From a virus, in IMG/VR virus record IMGVR_UViG_3300020401_000030, positions 1 through 41,123 of that record: a stretch of 41,123 nt of DNA, one strand, 5' to 3'. Below, in pieces: positions 13,094 through 35,667 of the stretch. Each line of letters starts with the position of its first letter. Within the stretch, counting starts at the first letter, position 1. The notes under the pieces were generated by a model. That model saw only the letters and a list, made by a program, of their open reading frames with translations, was not told the DNA's origin and ran no database searches. A program made the position numbers and the translations under genes.

Positions 13094-13498
13094 GTGCCAG
13101 CACAGAGGTTTTCGCAAGGATTCAAAGATATATCTTTGTCCTTCAAAAAACATCCAGTAACAAGAGACATCCTTACATTGAAAAATGAGGATGCCATCAA
13201 ACGTTCTGTGCAAAATTTAGTTCGCACTATAAGAGGTGAAGTATTCTTCAACGAACTATTAGGCACAAGAATCAGTGGATCGCTCTTTGAGTTGGCAAAT
13301 AGTGATTATATCGATCCTATGAAAACAGAGATAGAGACTGTTCTCAAAAACTTTGAACCAAGGGTAAAATTGACAGGAGTAGATTTCAAGTCTTTTCCTG
13401 ATCGTAACGCAGTTGATGTCACGATAAGATATGATCTTATTGGTCTCTCTGCCCCTTCTCAGTCTGTCAACTTCATACTAGAACCAACAAGGTTATAA
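13094..13498 (+). CDS. gp25: Baseplate wedge protein gp25
   Basis: A 134-residue protein, matching the T4 gp25 length (132). The N-terminal GFKDISLSFKKHPVTRDIL, the central NLVRTIRGEVFFNELLGTRISGSLFE and the C-terminal IRYDLIG..QSVNFILEP are the hallmarks of the GPW/gp25 family. It sits at the inner baseplate wedge and helps link the hub region to the sheath start. The GTG start at 13094 is favoured because it gives the expected N terminus just before the conserved GFKDI segment; no strong Shine-Dalgarno is visible. Its stop overlaps the gp6 ATG (TAATG). Presumed to begin a long late transcript through gp6 and beyond. Confidence 0.95.
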   Translation: MPAQRFSQGFKDISLSFKKHPVTRDILTLKNEDAIKRSVQNLVRTIRGEVFFNELLGTRISGSLFELANSDYIDPMKTEIETVLKNFEPRVKLTGVDFKSFPDRNAVDVTIRYDLIGLSAPSQSVNFILEPTRL

Positions 13499-15624: not shown

Positions 15625-18600
15625 TGATACAAACATCATTGACCAAAGTCAAAATAAATGAAGTAATTGAGAGTCAAATACCAGAGGTAATTGACGAGGA
15701 GAATCCTCTTCTTGGTGATTTTCTAAAACAATATTATATCTCACAAGAAAGTCAAGGTGGTGCTATAGACATCGCTGAAAACCTTGTTGAGTACAAGAGT
15801 TTAGACTTTTTGAATACAGAAAACCTCATAGGGTTCACTTCTGTCAGTCAATACACCAGAGCGAATGATGATGTAATATATGTTGACTCTACAAAGGGAT
15901 GGCCAAGACAATTTGGTCTTTTGAAGATTGATAACGAGGTAATTACATATACAGGAATAGGATCCACATCATTTGAGGGGTGTGTCAGAGGTTTTAGTGG
16001 TATTGAGAATAATAATAGAACTAATCAACCAGAGTATCTTACATTTACCAATAGTGGTGTAGCAACACACGGTGTGGACTCTAGAGTTCACAATTTGAGT
16101 AATGTATTCTTGCAAGAGTTTATGAAGAAACTCAAAAAGCAAGTATTGTCAGGATTTGCTGAGAGAAAATTAGATGAGAAACTTGATCAATCTAATTTCA
16201 TAAGACAATCAAAGGACTTCTACAAATCTAAGGGTACAGAGGAGGCATTCAAAATATTATTTGGTGCACTGTATGGTGAGAAGGTTGAGATGATTCAACC
16301 ATCAAAATATATCATTAGTCCATCAGATGCTGAGTATAGAGTCAATGAAGTATTGATATGTGAATTGATAGATGGTAATCCACTCAATATAACTGGTGAA
16401 AGTATCATACAGAAGACCACACCACTAGAAACAAGTGGTTCTATCACAGGTGTAGAGAAAGCAGTCTTTGGTGGTAAGACATACTACAAGATTGCACTGT
16501 CAAAAGGCACTATCATAGGTAAATTCCAACAGATAGGTAAGACATTCATTACAAGATCAGCAACAACTGGATCTACCAGTATTGATGTTGATTCTACAGT
16601 AGGGTTTGGTGCTACAGGATTCATTGAGTTTGAAGATAGGAGAATATCATATCTTGGTAAGTCACTTACACAATTTACTGGTATATCAACACTTACATCT
16701 CCTTGTGGTATTGGTTCAACTGTAAGGTCTGGTCTAGTTGCGACATCATATGAGAATGGTGATCTTGGATTGCCAGTCAGATTCAATGTGCTTGGTGTTC
16801 TCAACAAATTTGTAGGGTCTGCTATCAACCAACAAGAAGAATCTGAAGTCAACATAAACCAACTAGGAAGAATAGAGAAGGATCTGAGATATAGCACATG
16901 GATATACAATACAGCATCTACCTATGCTATTGAGACATACACTCTCAAAAGCACAAACAGTTACAACTTCAAACTTGCAGCAGCAAACTTCTCTCTCTAT
17001 GTCGGTGACGAGATAGAGGTCATAGATCAAGATGATCCAGATAACAAGTTGAATGGTACTATAACTTTCGTATTCGACGAAGATCAAGATGATTCTATAT
17101 CAGTCAGTGTGCCTACACTTGATACAACAAAGAAATATAAGATAAGAAGAAAATTAAAAATACAAAAAGATAGAACAGCTGACGTACAGAACACATACAC
17201 TGATGGTAGTGCTGTTCATGTTGCGTCTAACAGTTTACCTCACTGGACAATTGATCCACAAAAGAGAATTCGCTCATTTACCAATGTCGGTGTCAATACC
17301 ACCACAGTTGAGATAAATGTTCCAGACCATGACTTCTATGATGGTGATCTTGTAGCATACTCATCTTCAGGTATAGGCACACTCACCAATTTGAATGAGG
17401 GTGAGTCTTACTATGTCAAGAGAGTTGACAGTAACACTGTCAAATTGGCATTCACAGGAGAGAACGTAAGAAGGGGACAGTTCATAACTGCGTTCATAGG
17501 TGATGATATTGGATCTCAAACATCACATACTCTTACACCTAACTCACTGTTTGGTACTGATCTAGGTGCACAAAAAATTATAAGAAAGTTTAGTGATCCT
17601 GAATTTGGTGATGTAAAAGATAAGACAGTACAGGGTGGTGTTGGACTCTTTGCTAATGGTGTAGAGGCATACTCATACAAGTCATCTGACATCGTCTATT
17701 TCGGACCTTTGGAGAGTGTAGAGGTATTGAACACTGGTTCTGGATTTGATATTGTCAATCCACCTAAGTTGACAGTGGCACAGGATGGACATGCAGGTAC
17801 AGCAGCGTCTGTGATAGCACAGGTAGAGGGTACATTAGATGAAATCCTTGTAGATACTGAGGGTTTTGACTATGAAGAGACACCAACTGTAAAAGTAATC
17901 GGTGGTAATAATACTACAGCCATAGCAAAGGCAAAGATGAAGTTTGTTCATCAAACTGTAGAATTTGACTCAACATCTACAGGTGGTGTAGTCAATACTG
18001 CTACAGATAGGTTTGTATTCTCCTCTCCACATGGATTCAAACATGGTGAGGAGATCATATATCAAACACAGGGTAGTACAGGTATAGGAATTGGTATTAC
18101 ACCTGGCGTTTTGGTAGATACAGCACCATACTTTGTTGTAAAGTTAGATGATTTCCAGATCCACATTTCTGAGTCAAGGACAAAAGCACTGGCTGGTATA
18201 GGTACAATAGACCTTACAACTAATGGTGGTGGTTTACAGAGTTTCAAGACAACAGATAGAAGACAGAAGGTTGACAAGGTTCTTGTAGAAGATGCTGGTT
18301 TGTTCAAGAATAGAGAGGTGCATACAAGCACAGGTATCAATACATTCACTGATACCATAGAGATACACTCTCATGGATTCGATAATTCAGAAGTAATCAA
18401 GTATTCATCCACTGAGTCTGCCATAGGTGGTCTTACAAATGACAATCAATACTTTGTTGATAAGATAGATGATAATAGTTTCAGACTATCTGATAGTAAA
18501 GAACTCACATCATTCATAAGATTGAATGATCAGGGTCTAGGTGAGCATATATTCCAAGATCCTCCTATAACAGTAGACATCAGTGGTAGACAGGGTATAT

Positions 18601-21600
18601 CTACTATCAATGCAACTGCTACACCTATCATCAGAGGTAATATATCTGCAGTGCATGTGAATCAGAAGGGTAGTGACTTTGGTTCAACAGTTATCAACGA
18701 TAACTTCAAACCAGTCATTGAACCTGCTGTTGGTAAGAATGCTTTCTTACAACCATTCATTGTAAATGGACGTGTTGATCAGATAATCATAAAAGATGGT
18801 GGTGAAAACTTCTTCAGTGCAGATATTGTCATCCTTGGTGATGGTGTAGGTGCAAAAGCAAAAGCGAATATCTCTAATGGTGTCATAACAAGCATCGATA
18901 TGATAACAAAAGGTGCTGGATATACTCAACAACAAACAACTGCTACAGCAAAGACACCAGGTCAAGGTGCTATCTTCTCAAGTGAGGTCAAGAAGTGGAC
19001 TATCAACCAAGTAGAGAGATATGCAAAGTTTGGTGATGTAAAAGAAGATGACGGGTTCTTAGAAACACCAAGAGATTTTGATTTAGGTAATCCATACGTA
19101 AATTACTACGTACCACGTAATCTTAGGAACTTCCTAGGTGATCTTGGACAGGATCACTCACCTATTCTAGGATGGGCGTATGATGGCAACCCAATATACG
19201 GACCTTTCGCTATTGTGGATGGTAAGAAGAAGTATCTTGAGTCAAGTTATCGTAAGTTAGCTGCTCAAAGGGTTGACGGACCTGATATAAGCATTTACCC
19301 TGCTGGTTTCTTCGTAGAGGACTTTACATATGTGGAAGGGACAGGTGATCTAGATGAGCACAATGGTAGATTTGCTCCTACACCTGAGTATCCTAATGGT
19401 GTGTATGCATACTACACAACAGTTGATGAGATAGAGGTCAACAACCCTACCAGTCCATTCAACAACTCTAGAACACCAGTTTTCCCATACATTGTTGGTG
19501 ATACATATCATTCTAAACTACAAAAATTCAACAATGCATACGAAGCTAGTCAGGATCTAGATCTTCCCTCTCTTGGTCTTGTAAGAAATACTGAACCATA
19601 CAATATTACTGAGTATGAATACGTAGCACAGGCAAATAGAAACACACTTATAAACTCTAAAATTATACAGACCAAGAGTGGTATCATAGACAGAATTGAT
19701 ATTGTAACCTCTGGTAAGGATTATAATGTCAATGATAAGTTAGTCTTTGACAACAATCTTACTGGTGGGTTTGGTGCAATCGGTAAAGTAAGTCATGTTG
19801 AAGGACCTGATATAACAAACATCACATCATCTATCACTGAAATAGAAGATATAGTTCTAGTTGCTAATGCAAGTGGTGTCACAGGTATACACACAGGACC
19901 TATCAATATTCCCGATAATTCTTTTGTCGAGATCATTGGTATATCAACAACTACTCACTCCAATCTTGCTGCACGTAATGTGCAAATCAATCTAAAGCAA
20001 GTGAGCACTGGTCTTGGTATTTCTATGGCAAGTGTCAATAACACAGGACTTACAACAAGTGTTTTGATAACTGATTGGATACCAGATGTCATAAAGGGAT
20101 ACAAATTCAAGATCAATGACACTGTGCAGATTGATGATGAGCAATTGAAGATAATAAATTTTGACGTAAAGAACAACAGGCTGGAATTACAAAGAGCACA
20201 GAATGGCACAGCAGGTGCTGCACATACATTTGGATCTACAATCACAAGATTAGAGAATGAGTTCACATATCAATTAGACAAACCAGTCAATCTAACAACT
20301 GAAGAAGACACTGCATATTACTTCAATGCAGAGAGTGTGGTGGGTACAGGTAGCACATTCGGTGTAGGAATCGGCACTACAGTATCAGTAGCTGGAAGAG
20401 GAGGTCATCAGATAGTATCATTCTTTGGTAATGATGTAAAAGATATATTCATACCAACAAGATCAATCTATATGCCACGTCACCCATTCAAAACTGGTGA
20501 CAAAGTAGAGTATAGTCCTGGTGCTGGTACGTCACTCACTTACCAGACAGATGCGATGAAGAGAGTAGCAGGTGCATTCAAGAGACCACTGCCACCTGAA
20601 GTATTTGTGCAAGTATTAGACAATAATCTGATTGGTATTGTCACCTCACAGTCTGACATAGGATCTGATACCAACAGAGTGATGTTTAGTGGTAATGTAG
20701 GTATTGGAAACACACATTTCTTGAAGACAAAGAAAGATGTAGTAAGAGGCACACTCAGAATTATCAACGTCACAGCGACCTCTAATAATCATGCATTTGA
20801 GGTAGGTGACAATCTTGATTTGACAGTTGTGTCTTCTGCCACCAGCTCTGTCAGTGCAGTATATGACTCAGGAACAAGATATGTAAGTATAGGGTCATCA
20901 ATCAACCCACCAATATCACTGATTACAGGTGACACACTTGAAATTGATACCTCAGACGAATCACTTGAGAATACTAAATTATCTTTCTTCCTTGACCCAG
21001 ATTACAGGAAACCTTTTGTAGGCACAGGTAAATCTGCTATAGAGGTAGAGAATTTTGGTATACCTGGCAATGCTGGATCTAGAACATCCATAAACTTCAC
21101 TGATCGTGTGCCAGACGTATTATACTATAAGTTCTTACCACTTCAAAATACCAAGACTATTGAAGTCAATAAAGAGATAAAAGATTACTCTAAGATATTT
21201 GTAAATTCAAGTAAGTTTACAGGTAATCATACTATTCTATCAAAAGATACTAATACATTCAGTTGGAATCTATTCACCATACCTGAAAAGGTAGGATATA
21301 CCAGTGAGTCACAACTTTCTTACATCACAAACGCATCAAACGTGAGAGGTGGTGTTGCAAGAGTATTACTACAGGGTGGTGGGTCAAGTTACAAGGATAT
21401 ACCTCAGGTATCAGTAGCATCTACCACTGGGTCATCTGCTAACCTCAAAGCATTCGGTTCTGATGTAGGTAGATTGGATGAGATACAATTAGTTGACACT
21501 GGTTATGATTATCCATCCGACCTGACACTACAACCACAAGCAGCAGTGCCACAGGTATTGTTCTTGAAAGATAACTTTGCTGTGGATAGTGTGGCAATCA

Positions 21601-23894
21601 CATCTACAGGTAGAAACTATCTTACACCTCCTGATTTTGTTGTATACAACAGTAAGACAGACACTGTAAATGAAAATGCAGAATTTGAAGCAGAAGTGAT
21701 AGGTGGATCTGTATCAAATGTCAAAGTTATATTTGCTGGTGGTAATCTCAGCTCAGGTGATGTTGAATTGTTCGCTGTCAATAATACAAACGGTGTTGGT
21801 ATTATAAGTTGTACATATTCAGAACCAAACGTCACACTTAGACTTCAAACACCTATTTCAGGATTCACCACTGCTGTTCCAATACCATTTGCAGTAGGAG
21901 ATAAGGTATTTGTAGAGAATACAGGTGTTTCGACTGGTAATGGATATAACTCAGCTGACTTTGGATACCAGTCATTCACACTTACTGGTGTAAACACTGC
22001 TTTTGGTAACGTAAACCAAGCAACACTGACCTATGAAGTTGACAGAAATCCTGGCATACATGACTTTGAGAGATATGGTGTGGTAGTCAAGGACAAGGAT
22101 CTTGCCAAATTCAAAGTGAATCTAATAGAGAGTACATTCCTAAATGGTGAACCAGTCGTGTCCTCATCAGGTCAAGAGTCAAGAGTCATAATAGGTAAGG
22201 GTAAGACAAGGAACATACTAAGAGTTGACTCGCTTGTAGGGTTCAATACTGGTGATGTTGTTACTGGTAAGTTCTCCAAAGCAGGTGGTACGATAGAATC
22301 ATCTCAAGCATATGAAGGACACTTCACTCTTGATACATCGTCCGAGAAAGCATTCGGATGGGAAAGAGACACAGGTAAACTAAATGAGTTCTATCAGAGA
22401 GTTCAAGACAATGATTACTATCAAAACTTTGCATACTCACTCAAGAGTTTTGTAGGTATAAACAGTTGGAGTGAACCAGTTGACGCTCTCGCTCACATAG
22501 CAGGTTTCAAAAAACACTCTGATCATCTTATCAACTCTGTTCCTACCACAAGTTCACAACCTGCAGGTATATCATCAGGTGCAGGTAACGTGGTGGTAAT
22601 AGATGCACAAGCATCACTTCTTGACACTCACAACTTTGACCTTGTAAGTGAGAATACTAACCTTGATGAAAATGTCAGTGATGAGGTGCAATTCCTATCT
22701 GGAAGATTCGGTGATGGACTTATATGTAAGACAAACCGTGTATTAGAACTAGACGATATCAGTCCACAGTTCTACTCAGATCCAAACCTTATCAGGTCAG
22801 TTGAACTTGATACATTTGACATGCTGACAGGAGGACCTGCAGGTGATGGTATAAGTGCTGTCAAATATTATGCTCAAGTTGTCCTTGACGTAGCATCTGG
22901 TATATCATTCAATGCTACTCAGTATTCAGAGTTTGTTGTCTTCCATGATGGATCAACAGCATACCTCAACACATATTCAGAACTATCTGATGCTGATGAC
23001 CTAGGAGAATTTACAACTGAGACAAACGGACCTCTTGCTAGTGTCCTTTACGTTCCAACTAACTCAGCATTAGAGTATGATATCACATTCCACAAAGAAA
23101 TTATCACTAATGGTATTGGAATAGCATCCACTGCTTTTGGTTTGATGGAGTACAAGGGTGTTACTAAATCTCTTGCAGTAAGCAACACACTACAAGACGT
23201 TGACGAGGTGGATGCCACCATGTACAAGTCTGGAAGTATCCTTGTATCAGCAAGAGGACCTAATGGTGAGAAAGAGATTGATGAATTCTTGTGGTTGATA
23301 GATGGATCTAATAATGTCTTGTTCACCAATACTGGTAACATGGATGCTGATACAGATATAGGTCAATTCTCTATCAACAATGTAAGTGATGTATTGAAGT
23401 TACAGCATACACCTCCTGTAGGTATGGCAGTGACAGTATCATCTCTTACAAGGGCAGTGGGTGTAGCACAAACACATGGTAATTCTGGTATTGTTGATGA
23501 GTATCACATAGGTGACACTATGTTAGATAGTTCCTTTGTACAATTACCTGCTAACGGATCTCCTAGTGAGCAAATAATTTCTCAGAAAGCATATGCAAAC
23601 TATACAACATGTAGATTCCACGTTGAAATACACAACACAACTGATGATGAGTATTCTGTATTCATAGTTGGTTCAAACTCTTATGGTGGTAATGCTACCT
23701 ACAACACATACAACAACCTATACACTGCTGATAGTGAAAAGCGTAATATGTCAAATACTAGCATACATATTACTAGCACAAATACTCAATTAAAATTCTT
23801 ACCTGTTGCTAACAAAGCGTATACGATAAGAACACATGAACTCAAGATTGATAAACCAGATTCTGTTTCAAATAACACAACCGTAACGTACTAA
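15624..23894 (+). CDS. Giant baseplate structural protein, gp7-like N-terminal part plus YHYH-type domain
   Basis: A 2756-residue protein. Around residues 190-290 the order DFYKSKGTEEAFKILFGALYGE, then a YIISPSDAEY-like strand region and KGTIIGKFQQIGK, recalls the C-terminal part of T4 gp7, which also lies between gp6 and gp8 in T4. So this is probably the gp7 counterpart, with a very long C-terminal expansion (T4 gp7 is 1032 residues). WAYDGNPIYGPF at about 1180-1192 marks a YHYH-type domain. Much of the rest is repeated beta-rich modules (HGF..GE, G.GY and E.I.YTG types). Near residue 2250 a FGWERDTGKLNEFYQR segment begins a conserved-looking region. It overlaps gp6 and the next gene by one base each. 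Virion structural role is firm; gp7 identity is inference. Confidence 0.88.
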   Translation: MIQTSLTKVKINEVIESQIPEVIDEENPLLGDFLKQYYISQESQGGAIDIAENLVEYKSLDFLNTENLIGFTSVSQYTRANDDVIYVDSTKGWPRQFGLLKIDNEVITYTGIGSTSFEGCVRGFSGIENNNRTNQPEYLTFTNSGVATHGVDSRVHNLSNVFLQEFMKKLKKQVLSGFAERKLDEKLDQSNFIRQSKDFYKSKGTEEAFKILFGALYGEKVEMIQPSKYIISPSDAEYRVNEVLICELIDGNPLNITGESIIQKTTPLETSGSITGVEKAVFGGKTYYKIALSKGTIIGKFQQIGKTFITRSATTGSTSIDVDSTVGFGATGFIEFEDRRISYLGKSLTQFTGISTLTSPCGIGSTVRSGLVATSYENGDLGLPVRFNVLGVLNKFVGSAINQQEESEVNINQLGRIEKDLRYSTWIYNTASTYAIETYTLKSTNSYNFKLAAANFSLYVGDEIEVIDQDDPDNKLNGTITFVFDEDQDDSISVSVPTLDTTKKYKIRRKLKIQKDRTADVQNTYTDGSAVHVASNSLPHWTIDPQKRIRSFTNVGVNTTTVEINVPDHDFYDGDLVAYSSSGIGTLTNLNEGESYYVKRVDSNTVKLAFTGENVRRGQFITAFIGDDIGSQTSHTLTPNSLFGTDLGAQKIIRKFSDPEFGDVKDKTVQGGVGLFANGVEAYSYKSSDIVYFGPLESVEVLNTGSGFDIVNPPKLTVAQDGHAGTAASVIAQVEGTLDEILVDTEGFDYEETPTVKVIGGNNTTAIAKAKMKFVHQTVEFDSTSTGGVVNTATDRFVFSSPHGFKHGEEIIYQTQGSTGIGIGITPGVLVDTAPYFVVKLDDFQIHISESRTKALAGIGTIDLTTNGGGLQSFKTTDRRQKVDKVLVEDAGLFKNREVHTSTGINTFTDTIEIHSHGFDNSEVIKYSSTESAIGGLTNDNQYFVDKIDDNSFRLSDSKELTSFIRLNDQGLGEHIFQDPPITVDISGRQGISTINATATPIIRGNISAVHVNQKGSDFGSTVINDNFKPVIEPAVGKNAFLQPFIVNGRVDQIIIKDGGENFFSADIVILGDGVGAKAKANISNGVITSIDMITKGAGYTQQQTTATAKTPGQGAIFSSEVKKWTINQVERYAKFGDVKEDDGFLETPRDFDLGNPYVNYYVPRNLRNFLGDLGQDHSPILGWAYDGNPIYGPFAIVDGKKKYLESSYRKLAAQRVDGPDISIYPAGFFVEDFTYVEGTGDLDEHNGRFAPTPEYPNGVYAYYTTVDEIEVNNPTSPFNNSRTPVFPYIVGDTYHSKLQKFNNAYEASQDLDLPSLGLVRNTEPYNITEYEYVAQANRNTLINSKIIQTKSGIIDRIDIVTSGKDYNVNDKLVFDNNLTGGFGAIGKVSHVEGPDITNITSSITEIEDIVLVANASGVTGIHTGPINIPDNSFVEIIGISTTTHSNLAARNVQINLKQVSTGLGISMASVNNTGLTTSVLITDWIPDVIKGYKFKINDTVQIDDEQLKIINFDVKNNRLELQRAQNGTAGAAHTFGSTITRLENEFTYQLDKPVNLTTEEDTAYYFNAESVVGTGSTFGVGIGTTVSVAGRGGHQIVSFFGNDVKDIFIPTRSIYMPRHPFKTGDKVEYSPGAGTSLTYQTDAMKRVAGAFKRPLPPEVFVQVLDNNLIGIVTSQSDIGSDTNRVMFSGNVGIGNTHFLKTKKDVVRGTLRIINVTATSNNHAFEVGDNLDLTVVSSATSSVSAVYDSGTRYVSIGSSINPPISLITGDTLEIDTSDESLENTKLSFFLDPDYRKPFVGTGKSAIEVENFGIPGNAGSRTSINFTDRVPDVLYYKFLPLQNTKTIEVNKEIKDYSKIFVNSSKFTGNHTILSKDTNTFSWNLFTIPEKVGYTSESQLSYITNASNVRGGVARVLLQGGGSSYKDIPQVSVASTTGSSANLKAFGSDVGRLDEIQLVDTGYDYPSDLTLQPQAAVPQVLFLKDNFAVDSVAITSTGRNYLTPPDFVVYNSKTDTVNENAEFEAEVIGGSVSNVKVIFAGGNLSSGDVELFAVNNTNGVGIISCTYSEPNVTLRLQTPISGFTTAVPIPFAVGDKVFVENTGVSTGNGYNSADFGYQSFTLTGVNTAFGNVNQATLTYEVDRNPGIHDFERYGVVVKDKDLAKFKVNLIESTFLNGEPVVSSSGQESRVIIGKGKTRNILRVDSLVGFNTGDVVTGKFSKAGGTIESSQAYEGHFTLDTSSEKAFGWERDTGKLNEFYQRVQDNDYYQNFAYSLKSFVGINSWSEPVDALAHIAGFKKHSDHLINSVPTTSSQPAGISSGAGNVVVIDAQASLLDTHNFDLVSENTNLDENVSDEVQFLSGRFGDGLICKTNRVLELDDISPQFYSDPNLIRSVELDTFDMLTGGPAGDGISAVKYYAQVVLDVASGISFNATQYSEFVVFHDGSTAYLNTYSELSDADDLGEFTTETNGPLASVLYVPTNSALEYDITFHKEIITNGIGIASTAFGLMEYKGVTKSLAVSNTLQDVDEVDATMYKSGSILVSARGPNGEKEIDEFLWLIDGSNNVLFTNTGNMDADTDIGQFSINNVSDVLKLQHTPPVGMAVTVSSLTRAVGVAQTHGNSGIVDEYHIGDTMLDSSFVQLPANGSPSEQIISQKAYANYTTCRFHVEIHNTTDDEYSVFIVGSNSYGGNATYNTYNNLYTADSEKRNMSNTSIHITSTNTQLKFLPVANKAYTIRTHELKIDKPDSVSNNTTVTY

Positions 23895-26800
23895 TGTTTC
23901 AATTAGCATCAATCAATAAACAATTCAATACTGCAAGTGAGAGTTTTCAGACATCATTTAGACTGACTCATAAGGGTAACCAGTTATTCTCTCATGAGTT
24001 TGATGCTGGTGCAGCATCAGATGTGTTGATTGGTAAAGATACTTTTGTTGTAAAAAATCACTTTTTCACCACTGGTGAAGAGTTGACATATGAAGCATAT
24101 GATGGCAGACCTGTAGGTATAGATCATAATAGTCCTGGCGTTGGTGCTGCAACGACACTACCATCTACTGTGTTTGTTATAAAATTAGATGAGAATAAAT
24201 TCAAACTTGCTGCCACAAGAGACTTAGCAATATCCAGTGATCCAATAGGGTTGACAACAGTTGGTGTTGGAACCACACAAAGTTTTACCACACAGAAATT
24301 AGATACCAAGTGTATTGTCACGATTGACAACGTAATACAATCACCTCTACTTCAGAATACAAACGTATCAACACCGTTGAAGAGCACAATGTTCAACCGT
24401 GAGGCACGATTTACTGATGTAAACAAATTCAAGAACTACGATCTCATAAAAATGGGCAATGAGATCATGCGTATACAGGTCATAGGTTTTGGTACTATGG
24501 CAGATAATGTGCTTGTAGATCGTGCGTGGATGGGTACACAGGAAGAAGCACACTTGGTAAATGACCCAGTCACTTTGGTAAGAGGTGATTACAATATAAG
24601 AAAAAATAAAATACACTTTGCTGACACACCCTTTGGTGGCACCAGACAGAAGATTGGAATTCAATCTAGTGCGGTGAACGTATCAGCGAGTAGATTTACA
24701 GCACTCACGGAAGTATTCAGCACTGGTACACAAATAAAACTAAGATCAAGAACACCACCTGCTCCACTTGTAGGTAACAATGATTACTTCATAATCAAGA
24801 ATGGTAATAATGACTTCTCTTTCGCAGCATCTAAACCTGATGCTTTGACAGGTGTAGGTATCACTCTGACATCTGCAGGTATCGGTACACACAATCTCCT
24901 TGTTGCTGATGTGGTGGATGGTAGTGAATTTCAGGGTAGAGCATTCATGAGATCTGACTACAGAGGTAACTTTGTGCTCGATGATATATCAGGTGGATTT
25001 ACAGGTGTAGGTAAGACATTCACTCTTACAAGTGAAGGTTCAAATATCACTGGTATCAATACTGATTTCGGTGTAATACTTATCAACAATACATTCCAAA
25101 AACCTGATATAGATTATGGATATGATGAGAATGCAGGTATCACCTCAATCACATTTACAGGTAATGACATATCTGGTCAGACAGAAACCTATAGTGCATC
25201 TGATGTTAATGCGAATAGATTACCTAGAAAAGGTATTATATCTGGTCTAGGTAATTCTCAAGGATTTGGATACCAACAATTACAAACTGGATTTGGAACT
25301 GCTGTTGTATCTGATACTGGTACAGTCAGTGTTGCTTTGGGATTCACTGGTGGTGGATATAGATCTGATGGCACACAATTCAAGATTAGAGTGATAGGTG
25401 GTGATCCTACAACTCGTGCTGCAGGTCAATTCACTGTACAAGATGGTAGGATAAAAGATGTGACAATGACATCAGCAGGTGCAGGTTATACATTCACTAA
25501 CGTGCCATTACTTGAGTTTGACTCACCATACGCTTATGATGATATAAAACTGATTAGTGGTAGCACTGGTATAGGAGCTTCAGTTACGGTCAAGGTAAGT
25601 GTGGGCGACAGTATATCAGATCCTGTCATAACAAATACAGGGTATGGTTTTACTGTTGGTGAGGTTCTTACCATAGCAGGTATACCCACAAACTTCAGTG
25701 CTGGAACTGATTTCCAACCTGCTACTTTCACTGTTACTGAAACAAGTGATGATAAGTTCTCAGGATGGGTTCTAGGAAAATTCCAAATACTTGATGACTT
25801 CTCTAATGAGTTCAATAGTAGTAAAACACAATTTACTCTGAGAGAAAATGGAGAGCCAATCAGTATAGAGAAGACTGCAGGTAGTCCTATAAGTCTTGAT
25901 GACGTGCTACTCATATTCATAAATGATGTGCTACAAAAACCAGGTAAAGCGTATCAGTTTGATGGCGGTACACAATTGAAATTTACAGAGGCACCTCCTC
26001 AAGGTGCATCACTTCAAATCTTGTTCTATAGAGGAACTGACGCTGACATAATAAATGCAGAGGCAGTAGAGTCCATACTCAAGGGTGACATTATAACAAT
26101 AGAGAGTCCGTCAAAAGACAGATCTCTTCTCAAACAAGATCCAAGGACTATCAGAGAGGTTGTATCAAGAGATACACTACAAACTACCATCTACAAAGGA
26201 CAAGGTATCACAGCATCTAAGACACCTCTTAGACCTGTGACATGGAGGAAGCAAGAAGATGACAAGTTTGTTGATGGTGTGAAAGTAAGTAAGGCAAGAG
26301 GACTATATGCTGGTAGAGTTCAACCTGCAACCAGACTTATCTCTGGTGTAAGTACAACATCTACTGTGATGTATGGACAATCAGGTATCATTGGATTTAC
26401 TAAAACTGAAGATCCTAATGTCACTGAATTTGATATAAAAATTGTAGATACAGATAAGGACAATAGTGGATTTGGTACAACCACATTCACCAATCCTTAT
26501 AGGTCTCTTGAATCTGTGACATTGGAGGGTGACCAAGGTGTCATTGTTGGTGTCGGGTCTACTGCTACTGGTTTACAGTTTGAATTTACTATACCAACTA
26601 ACTCAGTATTGAGAGATAATGCATTCGGTGGATTTACTGAGACTGGTATAGGAACAGGTGACTTCTTCCTTGTAAGTAGATCAAATATTGGAGATGGTGT
26701 TACTGCTATGTCAACCGATGGTTCAGGAACTGTTGGTGTGACTACAATTTGCGTTGATGGTGTATTCCAAGTCAGTAACATTGAGAGAGTGGGTGCAGGT

Positions 26801-27022: not shown

Positions 27023-27025
27023 ATA
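27019..27025 (+). promoter_or_regulatory. Late-promoter-like box before gp8
   Basis: ATAAATA at 27019-27025, overlapping the stop codon of the preceding structural gene, ends 30 bases before the gp8 ATG at 27056. The only sizeable gap in this part of the cluster lies here, which fits a secondary late start. Confidence 0.6.
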
Positions 27026-27055
27026 AGAATTACGAACTAATTTAGTTTCAAAATA

Positions 27056-28594
27056 ATGCCAGCGATCATCACTGATCAGATAAGAGTATTGAATGCGACG
27101 AATTTCGTTAGCGGAATTTCGACGACTGACAACAGTTATTATGTCTTCATAGGTCTACCAAATGCTACTTCTGTAGCATCGGATTGGAACACTGCCACTC
27201 CTTCACCTATTGATAATTTTGACGAGCATGACAATGTATACGATTCTCTAATATCTGCCAAGAAAATAACCTCATCCGACGTGTTGAGAGTAATCAAAAA
27301 GATTACATGGGAAACAGGAACGATATATGAAATGTATCGTCAAGACTATAGTATTGATAAGTTGAGTCCTCAGACCAGTTCTTCGAGTTTGTACAAAGCA
27401 AACTACTATGTGATGAACTCAGACTTCAGAGTCTATGAGTGCATCTATAATGGTGCATCACCATCCAACAGTGGAGGTGGTGTTATATCTCTTGAAGAAC
27501 CTACACATACAGATTTGCAGCCGAGGTTAGAGAGTGATGGTTATGTTTGGAAGTATCTTTATACTATAAAACCAAGTGATATTATAAAATTTGACAGTGC
27601 TGAGTTTATACCAGTGCCACAAAACTGGGCAACAAATACAGCAGTTGCAGATGTAAGAAACGCTGCTGTAGATGGTAAGATAGAAACTATTGTGATTGAA
27701 GATGTCACGAATGCGACATATCAGTTCAATGGTACAAAGAACGCTGTTCCTATAAGAGGAGATGGATCTGATGGTCTGGCATCTGTCACATTCATCAACG
27801 GTAAACCCTCTGCTGTTCAGGTGACGAATGGTGGTAGTGGATATTCTTTTGGAACTCTTGATCTAGATGATGTGGTTACAGGAAGTGGTGCTTCATTCTC
27901 TGTTATCGTGCCACCACCAGGCGGTCACGGGGCAGACATATACAGAGAATTAGGTGCTAATAAAGTGCTTGTATATTCTCGTATTGAGAACAGTGATGTC
28001 ACAAACCCAGACTTTCCAACTGGTAACCAATTCGCAAGAATAGGTATTATAGAAAACCCACAGCAATTTGGTAGTACTAATTTACTTACTGCCTCATCTG
28101 CATCAGGGGTATATGGATTGAGACTAGCAGGGGCAGCAACAACCAGTATGTCAGTTGCAGTGGATGGTCAGATCACACAAACAGTAGGACTTGGATCTAC
28201 TGCTGTAGGTCAGATCATAGGATATGACCCAGTCACAAAATCATTGCAGTATTGGCAAGACAGATCCCTTGCTACTAATGACACCTCAGGTAATAAACCC
28301 ACCTTTGGTTACAAACTAAATAGATTCACTGCTAACCCTGCAAGTGGAGGCAATACTAACGTCATTGTCACTACCACAGGAGGAACAGAAACCTTGTCAA
28401 TTGACACAGGTTTTACGGGAGTTTCAACTACAGTAAACTCAAGAACATACTACTTTGGACAAACATATAACAGTGGATTGGCGAACCCAGAGATCAAAAA
28501 ATACTCTGGTAATATCATCTACGTTGACCAAAGACCTGAAGTTACTAGAGCGACAAACCAACGAGAAGATATTAAAATCATCTTAGAATTCTAA
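27056..28594 (+). CDS. gp8: Baseplate wedge protein gp8
   Basis: A 512-residue protein. The N-terminal YYVFIGLPNATSVASDWN, the central YRVYECIYNG-like segment, DGYVWKYLYTIKPSDIIKF, FIPVPQNW, and the C-terminal IIYVDQRPEVTRATNQREDIKIILEF order match T4 gp8, whose end reads MIYMENRPP...EEINILFTF. gp8 is a dimeric wedge protein linking gp7, gp10 and gp6. It is about 180 residues longer than T4 gp8 (334). The extra length includes VQVTNGGSGYSFGTLDL near 260, one of the G.GY modules also found in the neighbouring giant proteins. ATG follows a late-type box; stop is two bases from the next ATG. Confidence 0.93.
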   Translation: MPAIITDQIRVLNATNFVSGISTTDNSYYVFIGLPNATSVASDWNTATPSPIDNFDEHDNVYDSLISAKKITSSDVLRVIKKITWETGTIYEMYRQDYSIDKLSPQTSSSSLYKANYYVMNSDFRVYECIYNGASPSNSGGGVISLEEPTHTDLQPRLESDGYVWKYLYTIKPSDIIKFDSAEFIPVPQNWATNTAVADVRNAAVDGKIETIVIEDVTNATYQFNGTKNAVPIRGDGSDGLASVTFINGKPSAVQVTNGGSGYSFGTLDLDDVVTGSGASFSVIVPPPGGHGADIYRELGANKVLVYSRIENSDVTNPDFPTGNQFARIGIIENPQQFGSTNLLTASSASGVYGLRLAGAATTSMSVAVDGQITQTVGLGSTAVGQIIGYDPVTKSLQYWQDRSLATNDTSGNKPTFGYKLNRFTANPASGGNTNVIVTTTGGTETLSIDTGFTGVSTTVNSRTYYFGQTYNSGLANPEIKKYSGNIIYVDQRPEVTRATNQREDIKIILEF

Positions 28595-28596
28595 CG

Positions 28597-31500
28597 ATGC
28601 CACAGAACACCAACCTAAACGTCAGTCCATATTTTGATGATTTCGACTCATCAAAGAACTTCAATCGAGTTCTTTTCAAACCTGGCAGTCCGATACAAGC
28701 AAGAGAACTAACCACTCTACAATCTATTCTGCAAAATCAGGTAGAGAAGTTTGGTAAACACATTTTCAAAGAGGGATCTATGGTGATTCCTGGTGTGTTC
28801 AAGTATGATGCTCAGTATACCTCTATCAAAATAGAGTCTACATTTTTTGGTGTTCCTGTAGAACTCTATTATGATAAGTTGGTGGGTGTTAGTATAAAAG
28901 GAAAGACTTCAGGTATCACAGCAAAGGTAGTCAAGGTATTATCTTCTGCTAGTTCTGTCACAAATAATACTACCCTATTTGTCAAGTATGAGAAGAGTTC
29001 TGATGATTATTTGTCAGAGCAATTCTTAGATGGTGAGACACTCACTACTTTGGCAGATATAAATTATGGCGTAACAACAATATCTAATGGGTCTGACTTT
29101 GCTACTGCTATAAGTTCCAATGCCACATCCATAGGTTCTGCATTCACAATCACTAGAGGTGTATTCTTTGCCAGAGGTGCGTTTGTAGAAGTTTTACCTG
29201 AGACACTTATACTTGATCAGTACAGTAACCTACCATCATACAGAGTTGGATTCAATGTTAAAGAGGAGATTGTCACTGCTGTTGATGATAATAGTTTATA
29301 CGATAATGCTGCTGGATTCTCCAATTACACTGCTCCTGGTGCTGATAGGCTCAAGATTAGTTTATCACTTATTAAGAAAGAACTAGACGACTTCCAAGAC
29401 GAGAATTTTATTGAGTTACAGAGATTAGATACAGGTGATACAAAGAAGATAATTGAGACAACACTATATGGTGAGTTAGCAAAAGAATTTGCTAGAAGAA
29501 CATATGATGAGAGTGGTGACTACTATGTCACTAAGTTTGATTTAGAGTCGAAAGAATGTTTGAACGATAGACATAGTGTATTCGGTACATTCTTCCCAGA
29601 AAATAAAACTGATGATGGTAATGTGCCTAGCAAAGATCTATTGAATATAAGAGTAGGTCCAGGTAAAGCATACGTAAAAGGATATGAGACTAAGACTGTA
29701 GGATCAAACTATATTGACGTAGAAAAACCAAGAACAACAAGATTGGTTGAGTCTTCTGCTGTGCCATTTCAAGCAGGTAACAGACTTAGATTGAACAATG
29801 TCTTTGGATCTGCCAGAATCAACTTATCTGCTGCTACCTCAGACTTTCTTGACTTACGAAGTGCAAGACTTGGTTCTTCTAAATCAAGTGCTGCTGGTGA
29901 TTCTATTGGTAGAGCAAGAGTATATGATTACAAACTACAGAACTCAGGTTATACAGGCGACGCTAGTGTATTTGAGATATTCCTTTTTGATATACAAACA
30001 GATACTCAACTTACTATAAACCAAGCACACTCCATCTCTCTACCTGCTGTTATCGAGGGTAGGAACAGTGGTGCAAGAGGATTCTTACGTTCTGCAGTAG
30101 GCAATAGCACAACAATACAATTGAATCAGGTATCAGGTTCATTCCTATTAGACGAGCAAATACTAATCAATGGTGAACTCAATGGTAGAGTAATCACAGC
30201 GATAAGTGATTTCGATTTATCTGATGTCAAGTCAGTGAGATCTACAGCAGCAGGTAGAACATTCGCTGCCGATGTACTTCTTGAGACAAAGAAAGATCTT
30301 ACAGGTAGATCATTTAGTATCACCAGTGGTGGAGTGGTAACAAGTGGTACACCAGGTTGGGTAAGTAATTTCAAAGTTGGAGATGTAATATCCTACAAAC
30401 GTGGTGGACAGACAGACATTACATTCAACGTGGTCAGTGCAGTAAGTGCAACAAATAATAATATAACTGTTGTTGCTGCACCTAATACAGTATCAGGTGT
30501 GTGCCACAAGGCACTACCTAGTGCTACTACAACAGTAAGTGATCTGAAAATTGTAGCAGGTCAGTTGAGAAATTCTACAAGTGGTTTCTTATATTCTGAA
30601 TTAGCAAATACAAATATTGAGTCATTAGATCTTACTGATTCACTTCTTCAGATAAGGGTGGAGAATACAGGTCAAAGCACAAACGGTTCTGGTCAGTTGG
30701 ATCTACCATCATTGACTGGTACAGAATTGGTCTATGCTCCATTTGATGAGGAGAGATATACAGTTTCATATTCTGATGGGTCTGTAGAAGATCTTACATC
30801 AGATCAGGTTGTGATTACTGGTGGTGGTAAAGGTGTCACAATATCAGGTTTGACAGCGAGTCAATCTTCTGTAATTGTACATAGCACACAACAAAAATCA
30901 AAGGTAAAATCAAAACAAAAGACACTTATAAGAGAAGCGACAAAGGTAATAACAGGATCTAGTAGAACAAACTCAGGTATATCTACAGGTGTGGGTGATG
31001 GTCTTACACCAAGTGCTATTTTTGGACAGAGAGTACAGGACAGAGAGATATCTCTTGATGTCCCTGACGTAGTAAGTATAGTTGCAGTGTTTGAATCATC
31101 TGGCACAGGTGATGCAGTGATACCAAACATGACACTAGGTTCATTCAACGGACCTAATGGTAATAACACTGATGTCATAGTTGGTGAGATTGGAGTGGGT
31201 AAGAGTTCTGGTGCATCAGCACAAGTCTTATCAAGAAGTGGTACGACTAAAGTAAATGTGCTCTTCAAAAATGCATCTACATTCATAGAGAATGAAGAGG
31301 TGACATTTGAAGAGAGTGGTGTGAGAGCAATACTATCGAATGTAGAATCAGGTGATCCTAACATCAGAGGTAATTTTGTTCTTGATACAGGACAGAGAGC
31401 CGAGTATTATGATTATGGTAGAATAGTTCGTAAGCAAGGGTTCCCTGAACCTCAAGGTAGACTCACAGTCTTCTTCGATCATTATGTTATAAACTCAGAA

Positions 31501-34500
31501 GACTCTGGTGACATTCTTACAGCCAATAGTTACACGAAGAACAATTATGATAGTGTACCTGCTTTTGATAACATAAGGAACACTGATGTTATTGACCTAA
31601 GACCAAGAGTAGCCCAGTACAGTGGCACTAGATCACCATTTGAATTTGATTCAAGAGATTTTAGTGGCAGTGGTCAGTCACCTGCAGTTCTTGTGACTGA
31701 TGAGAACATAACGTTTGATTACAATCACTACCTTGGTAGGATAGATAGATTGTTCTTGAACAGAGATTCAACATTCACTATACAGCAAGGAACACCTGCT
31801 GTGAAACCTGTTGAACCTGAAGGTATATCTGAGTCATTTGAATTGGCAAAGATAACCTATAAACCATACGTTTACAATGCAAAACGTGAGGTAAAGATTG
31901 ACTTCCGTGCTAACAAACGTTACACGATGAAGCAGATAGGTGACCTTGATCAAAGAATAAGGAACATTGAAGAGGTAACAGCACTATCCCTTTTAGAAAA
32001 TAAAACTGAGAGTCTTGTTATAACTGATCCTACCACTGGTCTTGATAGGTTCAAGAATGGTTTTGTGGTTGATCCATTTAGAAACTTCCTTGTTGCTGAC
32101 AAGACAGTTCCATTCCTCAAGTATGATATAGATGAAGGAAAACTCACACCAAGAAAGCACTTTGATAGTATCGATCTCCTTATTGGCTCTGCTAGTGTTG
32201 TGGGTACTAATGGCAGCCCAGATCTTTCAGTTGACCCTAGATTCGCAACCGATTTAGGTTCTCCTAATATCAAAATGACTGGTGACATAGTCACCTTAGA
32301 TTATGAAGAGGTGCTCGATAGATCTCAACCATTTGCGACAAGAGTAGAGAATATAAACCCATACATGATGAGAAGTTGGAATGGTAATCTTGTACTAAAT
32401 CCAGAGTCTGACATCTTTACTGAAAGAGTATTTGAGGTGCAAGATGATGGTATAGGATTCTCTAATGACATCATCATAGAAGAGGAAGCAATACCAAACA
32501 TGAGAGAGCAGAACATTGCGTTCACCGCTACTCGATTGAAGCCAGGCACTAATCACTACAACTCGTTTGCTGGTGAGGATATGCTTGAGAACAATATCCG
32601 TACCATACCAAAACTACTTGAAGTTACACCTATACAGGGTGCCTTCCAAGTGGGTGAAACAGTAAGAGGTCTTGCAGTATCATCACAGAATGCAAGTCAG
32701 GGTGTAGATCTAAGATTCAGATTAGCAGCACCTAACCACAAAGACGGACCTTTCAACAATCCTACAATTACTTTCACTAATAACCCATACACAGCGAATG
32801 TAGGTTTATCATCAGCGTACTCTGAGACTACAACTGTATTGAACGTAGATATACAGTCATTGAATCAAAAGTCAGATGGTAACTTCTTTGGATTTGCTCT
32901 TGTAGGTATGAGATTAGTAGGAGAGACCAGTGGTGCAGAGGCAGAGATCAATCAAATCAGACTTATATCAGATGACTTTGGTGCACTGCTTGGATCATAC
33001 TATATCCCACCAGAAAGATTTGAGAATGGTACAAATACAGCTCTACTATCAAGTCTAAGGTCACAGGATAATTATCCTGGCTTGAACTTCTCAAGAGCTG
33101 CAGCAGACCACTTCTCTGAGGGTACTTTGATAACAAATACTACCCTTGAGAGAACAGAGCCAGCACCTCCTGTCATACCTGAACCAGTAATATTCAACAT
33201 TACTAACGTAACAAACAATATTACTAACATTCAGAATACCATTGTTCAACAAGTACAGGAAGTTGATGATGACCCTCTTGCTCAGACATTCCAAGTAGAA
33301 GAAAATCCTGGTATCTTTATGACATCAGTTGACTTCTTCTTCGCTACTAAATCTGACACCATACCACTTGATGTGAGGGTAGTGAATGTTGTCAATGGAT
33401 ATCCATCAAGAAACATTGTCAAGAATGGACAAGTAATACTGAACCCTGATCAAGTCAACGTATCATCAGATGCAACTGTACCAACTACATTCACATTCCC
33501 ATCTCCAATCTACTTACCTAGAGGAGAGTATGCTTTTGTTATAGTAACTGCAACATCTGAATACAACCAGTGGATCTGTCAAGTGGGTGAGGCTGACATA
33601 TCAACAGCTGACAACACTGAACTTGGAAAGGTTATCGTAACAAAACAACCATCACTAGGTTCTCTATTCAAGGGTCAGACTGCTGGCACATGGACTCCAT
33701 CACAGTTGGAAGACATGAAGTATACAGCAAGGAAGGCGAAGTTCACATTGAACTCAGGTACAGTAAGATTCTATAATCCTCAATTAGATACATTTGACAC
33801 TAGAAACAATCTTCCAGAAAATCCAATAGAGACATTTGCAAAACGTGTAACTGTGGGTCTTGGATCTGCCATCGGTGATGGTATCATAGACCTTGGCACA
33901 GAAATCAAACAAGATTCCAATTCGGGAGCATCAGGTATTGTGGCAGCAAAACTTGGACATCTTGGACAGACAGCCAGCACTCTCACCATCACAAATGGTG
34001 GTACAAATTATGAAGATGCAACATACCCATCAGTCGAGTTCGTAAGTCTCACAGGATCAGGATCAGGAGCCGTAGGTGTCGTGACTGTATCAAGTAATGT
34101 GGTTACAGGAGTCACAGTCATCAATGACAATACAGGAACAGGTTATAATGTGGGTGACACATTGACTGCATCTCTTGGTAACAAGGGACTAGGACAGAAT
34201 CTTCTTCTCACTGTTGGTGTAACAACTGGTGTAAACTCACTTCTTCTTACTAACAGTAAGGGAACATTCGACACCACCAATCCCATACAGTATCATGATG
34301 CTTCATTAGGTTATGGTGTAACTGTGAATAATATCATACCATCCACAGTGACAACAAACACTGATCAGTATGATGGATTACATTTCAAAGTAAGTCATCC
34401 TAACCATGGAAACTATGCTGCAAATAATACAGTCAAGATAAATGGCATCACAGGTGACACAGTTCCAACAAAAACAACTGTTGCATATGGTGTCAGTGAC

Positions 34501-35667
34501 ACCAGTGTGGTCAGCGTAGCAAGTAGTATTGGATTCAACTTCTTTGAAGGGTCACAAGTATCATCCAGCAATCCTGGTTTTGCATTACTTGGTGACGAGA
34601 TTATTCAATACACATCTGTTGGTACTAACCAGTTGAGTGGTACTATAACCAGAGGTAATGACGATACTTTTGCAAGAACCTATCCAGTGGGCACACCTGT
34701 ACAGAAGTATGAGTTGTCTGGTGTATCTCTTAGAAAGATAAACACAAATCACTCTATCATAAACGCATCAACATCCATAGACGAGAAAACAACTCTCGAC
34801 TCCTATCATGTCAAGATCACTGGATCTGCGTTGTTCACTAAGGACAAGCCAGGTGGAGGCACAAGAGGTAAAGCAAGTACAAACATAGTATTTGATACAA
34901 TCTCACCTGCCATCGCTCACAGCATACCTAAGGGAACTGTAATCAATTCAAGTATGAGAACTACATCTGCAACAAGTGTTAGTGGCGGTGAAGCGTCATT
35001 CTCAGACAAGGGTTACGATAGTATATCACTTGTAAATGAAACTAAGTTTGACACAGTTCGTATGGTTGCTTCTAAGGTAAATGAATCAGCACAGTTGTCT
35101 ACAAGACCAGGTGAGAAATCTCTTACTGTTGATTTGAACTTGAGCACTACTAATGAGGATGTATCACCTGTGATTGATGCATTCAAGAGTTCTATAAATG
35201 TCACAACTAATAGAATCAACAAACCTGTTGATAACTATGCTCTAAGCAGTAAGGCAAATCAACTTGATGATCCACATAATCAACTATATCAAACAAAAGT
35301 TATAATGTTGGAGAACCCTGCAACATCACTCAAAGTATTATTCGCTGCGTTCAGACCACCAGCTGCAGATGTCAGAGTGTTGTACAGACTATTCAGAGCA
35401 GACGCTGATTCATTAGACAAAGTGTTTGAGTTGATGCCAGGTTATGAGAACCTTGACTCATCTGGGTTTGTTATATCTGAGAAGAACAACAGTGGTAGAC
35501 CTGATAGAAACGTGGTTCCTAGTTTGGAAGATCAGTTCCTTGAGTATGAATTCACAAAGAATGGTTTACCTCCATTCACAGGATTCCAAGTCAAGGTTTG
35601 CTTCTCATCAACAAACCAAGCACAAGCACCTGAGTTACTTGACTTCCGTGCCATCGCTGTGGCATAA
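28597..35667 (+). CDS. Giant baseplate/tail structural protein, DUF4815 type (possible gp10-like role)
   Basis: A 2356-residue protein. Its N terminus (FNRVLFKPGSPIQARELTTLQ, then FGKHIFKEGSMVIPG) is the DUF4815 signature found in T4-like marine phages. Near residues 1530-1556 an NIT-rich stretch (FNITNVTNNITNIQNTIVQQ) looks like a trimeric coiled coil and precedes DDPLAQTFQVEENPGIFMTSVD and WICQVGEAD..., a region I recall as conserved in cyanophage versions. A G.GY module (about 1800-1865) and an E.I.YTS module (about 1970-2040) follow. Position after gp8 suggests a gp10-like role, joining wedge and fibres, but sequence proof is lacking. The stop shares a base with a small basic gene (TAATG). 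Confidence 0.88.
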   Translation: MPQNTNLNVSPYFDDFDSSKNFNRVLFKPGSPIQARELTTLQSILQNQVEKFGKHIFKEGSMVIPGVFKYDAQYTSIKIESTFFGVPVELYYDKLVGVSIKGKTSGITAKVVKVLSSASSVTNNTTLFVKYEKSSDDYLSEQFLDGETLTTLADINYGVTTISNGSDFATAISSNATSIGSAFTITRGVFFARGAFVEVLPETLILDQYSNLPSYRVGFNVKEEIVTAVDDNSLYDNAAGFSNYTAPGADRLKISLSLIKKELDDFQDENFIELQRLDTGDTKKIIETTLYGELAKEFARRTYDESGDYYVTKFDLESKECLNDRHSVFGTFFPENKTDDGNVPSKDLLNIRVGPGKAYVKGYETKTVGSNYIDVEKPRTTRLVESSAVPFQAGNRLRLNNVFGSARINLSAATSDFLDLRSARLGSSKSSAAGDSIGRARVYDYKLQNSGYTGDASVFEIFLFDIQTDTQLTINQAHSISLPAVIEGRNSGARGFLRSAVGNSTTIQLNQVSGSFLLDEQILINGELNGRVITAISDFDLSDVKSVRSTAAGRTFAADVLLETKKDLTGRSFSITSGGVVTSGTPGWVSNFKVGDVISYKRGGQTDITFNVVSAVSATNNNITVVAAPNTVSGVCHKALPSATTTVSDLKIVAGQLRNSTSGFLYSELANTNIESLDLTDSLLQIRVENTGQSTNGSGQLDLPSLTGTELVYAPFDEERYTVSYSDGSVEDLTSDQVVITGGGKGVTISGLTASQSSVIVHSTQQKSKVKSKQKTLIREATKVITGSSRTNSGISTGVGDGLTPSAIFGQRVQDREISLDVPDVVSIVAVFESSGTGDAVIPNMTLGSFNGPNGNNTDVIVGEIGVGKSSGASAQVLSRSGTTKVNVLFKNASTFIENEEVTFEESGVRAILSNVESGDPNIRGNFVLDTGQRAEYYDYGRIVRKQGFPEPQGRLTVFFDHYVINSEDSGDILTANSYTKNNYDSVPAFDNIRNTDVIDLRPRVAQYSGTRSPFEFDSRDFSGSGQSPAVLVTDENITFDYNHYLGRIDRLFLNRDSTFTIQQGTPAVKPVEPEGISESFELAKITYKPYVYNAKREVKIDFRANKRYTMKQIGDLDQRIRNIEEVTALSLLENKTESLVITDPTTGLDRFKNGFVVDPFRNFLVADKTVPFLKYDIDEGKLTPRKHFDSIDLLIGSASVVGTNGSPDLSVDPRFATDLGSPNIKMTGDIVTLDYEEVLDRSQPFATRVENINPYMMRSWNGNLVLNPESDIFTERVFEVQDDGIGFSNDIIIEEEAIPNMREQNIAFTATRLKPGTNHYNSFAGEDMLENNIRTIPKLLEVTPIQGAFQVGETVRGLAVSSQNASQGVDLRFRLAAPNHKDGPFNNPTITFTNNPYTANVGLSSAYSETTTVLNVDIQSLNQKSDGNFFGFALVGMRLVGETSGAEAEINQIRLISDDFGALLGSYYIPPERFENGTNTALLSSLRSQDNYPGLNFSRAAADHFSEGTLITNTTLERTEPAPPVIPEPVIFNITNVTNNITNIQNTIVQQVQEVDDDPLAQTFQVEENPGIFMTSVDFFFATKSDTIPLDVRVVNVVNGYPSRNIVKNGQVILNPDQVNVSSDATVPTTFTFPSPIYLPRGEYAFVIVTATSEYNQWICQVGEADISTADNTELGKVIVTKQPSLGSLFKGQTAGTWTPSQLEDMKYTARKAKFTLNSGTVRFYNPQLDTFDTRNNLPENPIETFAKRVTVGLGSAIGDGIIDLGTEIKQDSNSGASGIVAAKLGHLGQTASTLTITNGGTNYEDATYPSVEFVSLTGSGSGAVGVVTVSSNVVTGVTVINDNTGTGYNVGDTLTASLGNKGLGQNLLLTVGVTTGVNSLLLTNSKGTFDTTNPIQYHDASLGYGVTVNNIIPSTVTTNTDQYDGLHFKVSHPNHGNYAANNTVKINGITGDTVPTKTTVAYGVSDTSVVSVASSIGFNFFEGSQVSSSNPGFALLGDEIIQYTSVGTNQLSGTITRGNDDTFARTYPVGTPVQKYELSGVSLRKINTNHSIINASTSIDEKTTLDSYHVKITGSALFTKDKPGGGTRGKASTNIVFDTISPAIAHSIPKGTVINSSMRTTSATSVSGGEASFSDKGYDSISLVNETKFDTVRMVASKVNESAQLSTRPGEKSLTVDLNLSTTNEDVSPVIDAFKSSINVTTNRINKPVDNYALSSKANQLDDPHNQLYQTKVIMLENPATSLKVLFAAFRPPAADVRVLYRLFRADADSLDKVFELMPGYENLDSSGFVISEKNNSGRPDRNVVPSLEDQFLEYEFTKNGLPPFTGFQVKVCFSSTNQAQAPELLDFRAIAVA

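Follow-up and report, generated by a model that had tools for sequence, protein, structure and literature searches.

Gp7 is described, in a passage of PMC3037559, as very divergent, and "gp7" in the A-1(L) tail denotes, according to a passage of PMC10966104, a neck hexamer, a protein other than the cyanophage wedge gp7. The closest described relatives of the locus analysed here are the giant gp7 proteins of the Kyanoviridae (PHROG family 2885, 4179 positions); in S-SM2 and other cyanophages gp7 is a single protein of about 4,100 aa (about 4,150 aa in S-SM2), and one gene, gp7, occupies the stretch in S-SM2, SynMITS9220M01, P-SSM2, P-TIM68, S-CAM9 and Bellamy. Shorter gp7 forms occur in HTVC008M (1016 aa) and Mendera (503 aa), and the neighbouring protein gp8 has a solved counterpart in T4 (PDB 1n7z, PF09215). 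The modules mapped below were not found in the titles and abstracts on cyanophage gp7 structure, VrlC, DUF4815, 9euf, endosialidase barrels and FCCH-like phage domains.

The DNA examined (the window) is the whole of virus record IMGVR_UViG_3300020401_000030, 41,123 bases in length. Its genes run gp25-gp6-gp7-gp8-DUF4815 protein, which is the order of T4-like cyanophages, and the window represents part of the genome of a marine, T4-like phage of Kyanoviridae type; the baseplate wedge roles of its proteins are putative, having been assigned through homology to T4. The proteins themselves are ordinary members of known cyanophage families, and the new information is a map of repeated modules with fixed slots (Table 1). 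We consider it quite probable that a giant gp7 of this kind arose by accretion of four old module families onto an ancestral wedge protein, the modules serving as structural bricks that were fixed in place before the sampled phages split.

A giant gp7 in two reading frames

The two large ORFs of 2756 and 1042 aa both match PHROG 2885, one at its start and the other near its end; they are collinear with this one long family and align to the single gp7 of S-SM2 and other cyanophages, with which the window shares both gene order and module order. The window version differs from the S-SM2 type in being divided by TAATG, in carrying one additional type 1 copy and in lacking the type 2 pair that follows the second copy of the fourth type. 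Instead of a single uninterrupted ORF, the window has a split at 23894 where the stop of the first part overlaps the start of the second (window 23885-23900), which suggests that the two halves are translationally coupled. The TAATG split recurs in most related contigs, with a gap of 5-21 bases in some instead, and gp7 of S-SSM7 (locus L007, 3562-22656) is likewise in two pieces, of 3007 and 3001 aa, which flank a 340-aa gene. Because these relatives are also split, an uninterrupted ORF is not a strict requirement of the giant gp7 family. An earlier note on this DNA had counted four adjacent structural genes; four ORFs are present, but they represent three ancestral genes, two of the ORFs being gp7 halves. 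A split point that shifts among relatives was also considered, but the shift proved to be an artefact of loci that had been cut 10 kb upstream of gp8, and the idea was dropped.

Gp8 matches PF09215 above its cut-off of 25 bits and phrog_438 over the full length of the profile, and it is located after gp25-gp6-gp7, as expected by position of a T4-like gp8.

Other features of the locus lie outside the modules. The C-terminal tail of gp6 (15540-15621) is serine/threonine-rich and of low complexity, and falls outside the part matching its family. Between module groups of gp7, within the 2756-aa ORF, lies a YHYH domain (residues 1175-1268, window 19146-19427), which matches PF14240 at E 9e-22 and 78 bits. 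For the DUF4815 protein (28597-35667) there is a relative of known structure, 9euf (ORF65, 1152 aa; E 1e-32); it might supply a model for residues 1558-1725 of the DUF4815 protein.

Table 1. Genes and module copies of the window. Slot numbers are positions mapped on S-SM2 gp7.
Feature	Position	Strand	Remarks
gp25	13094-13498	+	upstream of gp6
gp6	13498-15624	+	between gp25 and 2756-aa ORF
gp7 N-terminal part, 2756 aa	15624..23894	+	phrog_2885 positions 5-1783; aligns with S-SM2 gp7
gp7 C-terminal part, 1042 aa	23894..27022	+	phrog_2885 positions 3540-3893; collinear with S-SM2 gp7
gp8, putative baseplate wedge, 512 aa	27056..28594	+	phrog_438 E 6.5e-148; PF09215 45 bits
DUF4815 / VrlC-like structural protein, 2356 aa	28597..35667	+	PF16075 E 1.3e-53; phrog_358
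Type 1, gp7 slot 632	17289..17459	+	iE 1.9e-20; P 98.7
Type 1, gp7 slot 869	17988..18182	+	iE 1.5e-23; P 98.8
Type 1, gp7 slot 975	18333..18503	+	iE 8.2e-20; P 99.2
Type 1, gp7 slot 1726	20442..20651	+	iE 3.5e-20; P 98.0
Type 1, gp7 slot 3047	24020..24223	+	iE 5.2e-21; P 98.8
Type 1, extra in window's clade, slot 3232	24674..24835	+	iE 1.1e-16; P 95.2; absent from seven named phages
Type 2 pair, gp7 slots 758 and 801	17688..17954	+	iE 1.6e-10 and 2.3e-12
Type 2 pair, gp7 slots 1126 and 1165	18756..18992	+	iE 1.0e-8 and 3.2e-11
Type 2, weak, gp7 slot 1461	19677..19781	+	iE 8.7e-3; P 95.2
Type 2, gp7 slot 2124	21342..21452	+	iE 6.2e-8; matches type 2 stretch of short gp7 forms
Type 2, gp7 slot 3540	25430..25585	+	iE 1.3e-19
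Type 2 pair of gp8	27674..27922	+	degenerate unit and canonical unit 27788-27922 (iE 4.4e-13); alignment with other gp8
Type 2 stretch, DUF4815 protein, boundaries approximate	33997..34236	+	P 93.2-93.9; matches gp8 at 1.1e-6
Type 3, gp7 slot 113	15876..16025	+	iE 1.5e-14; P 99.2
Type 3, diverged, boundaries approximate	16524..16703	+	P 94.6; missed by single-sequence HMM search
Type 3, gp7 slot 1609	20097..20243	+	iE 4.5e-21
Type 3, gp7 slot 3175	24407..24571	+	iE 5.4e-25
Type 3, DUF4815 protein	34510..34701	+	iE 6.4e-19
Fourth type, first copy, slot 3303	24977..25144	+	iE 3.3e-24
Fourth type, second copy, slot 3672	25790..25972	+	iE 1.4e-25

Module copies are homologous within each type

The earlier note had reported, from short motifs, three types of recurring beta module common to the four ORFs. 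Profile HMMs (649, of 50 columns each) were built, each only from orthologues of one stretch and without use of those motifs, and were run against the window proteins and against reversed and locally shuffled versions of the same composition. Off-position matches numbered 41 at E<=1e-5 and 74 at 1e-4, whereas the control sets gave 0 and 0.1 matches per set, respectively; they fell mainly on the stretches already named, and on one further family. Residues 901-950 of the 2756-aa ORF matched residues 553-602 of the same protein at 4e-13, gp8 residues 231-280 matched residues 512-539 of the 1042-aa ORF at 3e-8, and residues 1981-2030 of the 2356-aa ORF matched residues 98-124 of the 2756-aa ORF at 2e-8. 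Recurring modules common to gp7, gp8 and the 2356-aa ORF are borne out by such matches.

Iterated family HMMs recovered type 1 (at 17289, 17988, 18333, 20442, 24020 and 24674), type 2 (at 17688, 17823, 18756, 18864, 19677, the last weak, 21342, 25430 and 27788) and type 3 (at 15876, 20097, 24407 and 34510), and gave no matches to reversed proteins. When profile-profile tiles were compared with module alignments from which the window sequences had been removed, all 18 positions listed in the earlier note were recovered at about 94-99% probability (16555 at 94.6%, 33985 at best 93.9%), and none of 1,292 reversed comparisons exceeded 20%. Since most of these alignments hold orthologues of the same position, support across positions comes from the off-position HMM matches; positions 16555 and 33985 are independent in the tile comparison, because their orthologues are absent from the alignments. 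Self-comparison of the proteins by profile methods, a check that had been proposed at the outset, thus yielded homologous copies within each type with clean controls. Judged from their sequence, the units are probably beta-rich modules.

Convergence of glycine/threonine-rich beta proteins on similar short motifs would account for motifs that are, as here, short and glycine-rich; yet controls of equal composition, both reversed and locally shuffled, produced no comparable matches, and copies of types 1 and 3 align across about 50-65 residues. We regard a compositional origin of the likeness as highly improbable.

Profile comparison of types 1, 2 and 3 with one another detected no relation, and their treatment as variants of one domain was rejected (probability <1%). 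A fourth module type, with residues like INxxxQxPGxxYxF, was found in two copies (24977 and 25790), both in the 1042-aa ORF. Type 3 consists of two subfamilies bridged by the copy in the DUF4815 protein: the N-terminal gp7 slot has no direct match to slot 1609 or to gp15, and the DUF4815-protein copy links them. The sharing among all four ORFs held for type 2, which occurs in both gp7 ORFs, gp8 and the DUF4815 protein, but not for type 1, confined to the two gp7 ORFs, or for type 3, found in these two and the DUF4815 protein. The 2756-aa ORF carries four type 1, at least six type 2 and three type 3 copies. Slot 1885 has no clear type 1 copy in the window, where a degenerate HAFEVGD stretch lies near 20790.

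Modules are held in fixed slots

The window was compared with seven named Kyanoviridae (S-SM2, SynMITS9220M01, P-SSM2, P-TIM68, S-CAM9, S-SSM7 and Bellamy) and with about 60 related contigs. All seven phages keep the module order, and nearly every copy lies in the same place there and in the contigs. Across the eight phages, type 1 occupies slots 632, 869, 975, 1726, 1885 and 3047 nearly everywhere, type 3 slots 113, 1609 and 3175, and the fourth type slots 3303 and 3672. The order of types 1, 3 and 4 hardly varies among the contigs, and differences in type 2 count are near the detection limit. Three related loci (L029, L052 and L056) have about 180-190 extra residues near residue 535 of the 1042-aa ORF orthologue, adjoining a type 2 unit.

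After removal of two near relatives, the nearest copy in another phage came from the same slot for 27 of 33 type 1, 52 of 61 type 2, 22 of 23 type 3 and 10 of 10 fourth-type copies, against permuted means of 5.1, 8.2, 5.4 and 5.2, respectively; the permuted maximum for the fourth type was also 10, so its count is weak taken alone. In maximum-likelihood trees, type 1 took 6 changes for seven slots and type 3 took 4 for five groups, both the minimum possible, with low support for many inner branches (the sequences are short). The type 3 tree placed the DUF4815-protein copy with gp7 slot 113 and the gp15 copies with slots 1609 and 3175. Relative to the window, mean identity was 0.70 in modules and 0.70 elsewhere for the 2756-aa ORF, and 0.65 and 0.64, respectively, for the 1042-aa ORF.

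These results bear on the proposal, made in the earlier note, that recombination moves modules between neighbouring genes and thereby remodels the baseplate surface rapidly. Adjacent genes do carry the same module types, an extra type 1 copy at 24674 marks the window's clade, and the best matches of a few type 2 copies are reciprocal between gp14 and gp7 slot 3897 across phages, the sole hint of exchange, in a slot region absent from the window. Against movement in any recent sense stand the fixed slots in all relatives, the same-slot nearest copies, the minimal slot changes in the trees and the want of long DNA repeats in the window, where direct repeats reach at most 32 nt; rapid remodelling finds no support in module sequences that are no more variable than their surroundings or in slots that are fixed across the Kyanoviridae. 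On the time scale sampled the proposal is largely refuted, and we give it little credence. Because the slots are fixed, the copies cluster by slot and module divergence is not raised, the spread of the modules is placed by these comparisons before the divergence of the sampled phages. The relations between genes are old as well.

A type 2 pair is the rule in gp8

T4 gp8 and the gp8 of the window have in common a conserved core around GYVWKYLY and a C-terminal motif, but T4 gp8 lacks the type 2 pair that the window protein holds between the two conserved halves. In the gp8 alignment the type 2 stretch follows the GYxWKYLY core and precedes the conserved segment that comes next; it is also present in phages of Pelagibacter (HTVC008M), Pseudoalteromonas (XG4), Rhizobium (RHph_I1_9), Sinorhizobium (phiM7) and Stenotrophomonas (Mendera) and in the cyanophages P-HM2 and S-RIM2, but not in T4. 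Among the sequences aligned the pair is therefore the rule, and T4 is without it. The earlier note was right that T4 gp8 lacks type 2; the single copy it assigned to the window gp8 is really a pair, one unit degenerate and one canonical. Since only the type 2 stretch aligns between gp7 and gp8, their similarity reflects a common module and not whole-gene paralogy, and whole-gene duplication was rejected as the source of type 2 in the two proteins.

Short gp7 forms and the probable growth of the giant protein

Gp7 of HTVC008M aligns with residues 10-290, 1902-2001 and 2249-2300 of the 2756-aa ORF, the second of these, a type 2 stretch, being matched by HTVC008M residues 488-583. By this alignment the core parts of the giant gp7 are separated by about 1,600 residues that are missing from the HTVC008M protein; core segments and type 2 units of the HTVC008M and Mendera proteins align with the window gp7. 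HTVC008M, Mendera and XG4 have short gp7-like proteins that carry type 2 units, and none of these proteins holds types 1, 3 or the fourth at a convincing score; within the comparison set, these three types were convincingly found only in cyanophage proteins. Type 2 looks the oldest of the four families, since various relatives with non-cyanobacterial hosts already have it in their gp8 and short gp7.

On the simplest reading, the ancestral wedge protein would have had several hundred residues, with type 2 already lodged between two parts of its core. About 1,600 residues would then have been inserted and the C-terminus extended, the 1042-aa ORF forming part of the extension, as small and probably beta-rich modules of the four families accumulated. 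The direction could be the reverse, the short gp7 forms being reduced by loss and not ancestral.

Modules beyond gp7 and possible glycan binding

Modules also occur outside the four ORFs. The neck protein gp14 holds three to seven type 2 units in each of the six phages where it was identified, the neck protein gp15 a type 3 copy in three phages, and type 1 or the fourth type occurs in a few tail-fibre or other structural proteins, such as type 1 in the P-HM2 tail fibre; tail-fibre and head-closure families are among the PHROGs matches of the modules. Because neck and tail proteins carry them too, the module pool reaches beyond four neighbours. Type 2 has no convincing match to Pfam or NCBIfam profiles and none below E 0.05 to solved structures (PDB). 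We raise tentatively, and with rather more doubt than conviction, a broader reading in which type 2, as a virion repeat of wide occurrence that has yet to be described, would serve gp7, gp8, the DUF4815 protein and gp14 of one particle alike as a connecting brick. It would thereby link the architecture of baseplate and neck in T4-like phages of sea and soil, and genes would on rare occasions, long ago, have passed copies to one another, for example gp14 and the C-terminal end of gp7.

Type 1 shows a weak profile likeness, including a motif like HGFxxGDxVxY, to the endosialidase beta-barrel (PF12195, PDB 4hiz; E 0.006 to an endosialidase) and to E1_FCCH (PF16190; E 0.002-0.004 for E1_FCCH / End_beta_barrel), but the scores fall below the Pfam gathering cut-offs (17.6 bits against 29.5 and 17.5 against 35), and the proteins are otherwise unrelated. 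The fourth type gives weak profile matches to a capsule depolymerase and to CBM_X2. For type 3, motif matches recur weakly along the minor tail protein of PDB 8vjh (whole-chain E 8e-7), but no single stretch is significant alone (best 0.058). Type 1 or the fourth type could bind glycans.

Were adsorption to the host their main task, the modules would be small barrels at the surface of gp7 that bind cell-surface glycans, with many copies providing avidity. The weak matches of type 1 to the endosialidase barrel and of the fourth type to capsule depolymerase and CBM_X2 point in this direction, as do the type 1 copies of the P-HM2 tail fibre; but these matches do not reach curated cut-offs, module sequences do not change faster than those around them, as host-binding sites often do, and neck proteins, which are far from the host surface, contain types 2 and 3 too. 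Adsorption as the chief role is therefore unlikely. In our preferred account, accretion of structural bricks, the modules would broaden the wedge and provide contacts between proteins, both in the outer baseplate and, through gp14 and gp15, in the neck; type 1 may add glycan contacts.

Implications

Similarity in type 2 alone, such as that among gp7, gp8 and gp14 in PHROGs, is not to be equated with homology of whole proteins. In size, cyanophage gp7 exceeds its T4 counterpart several-fold, a difference for which the annotations that we met give no reason; the module map supplies one, and names segments worth solving. In place of a rapidly shuffling surface, it presents what would be a conserved scaffold: a wedge protein of old origin to which a few repeated families were added, and in which they have been held in place.
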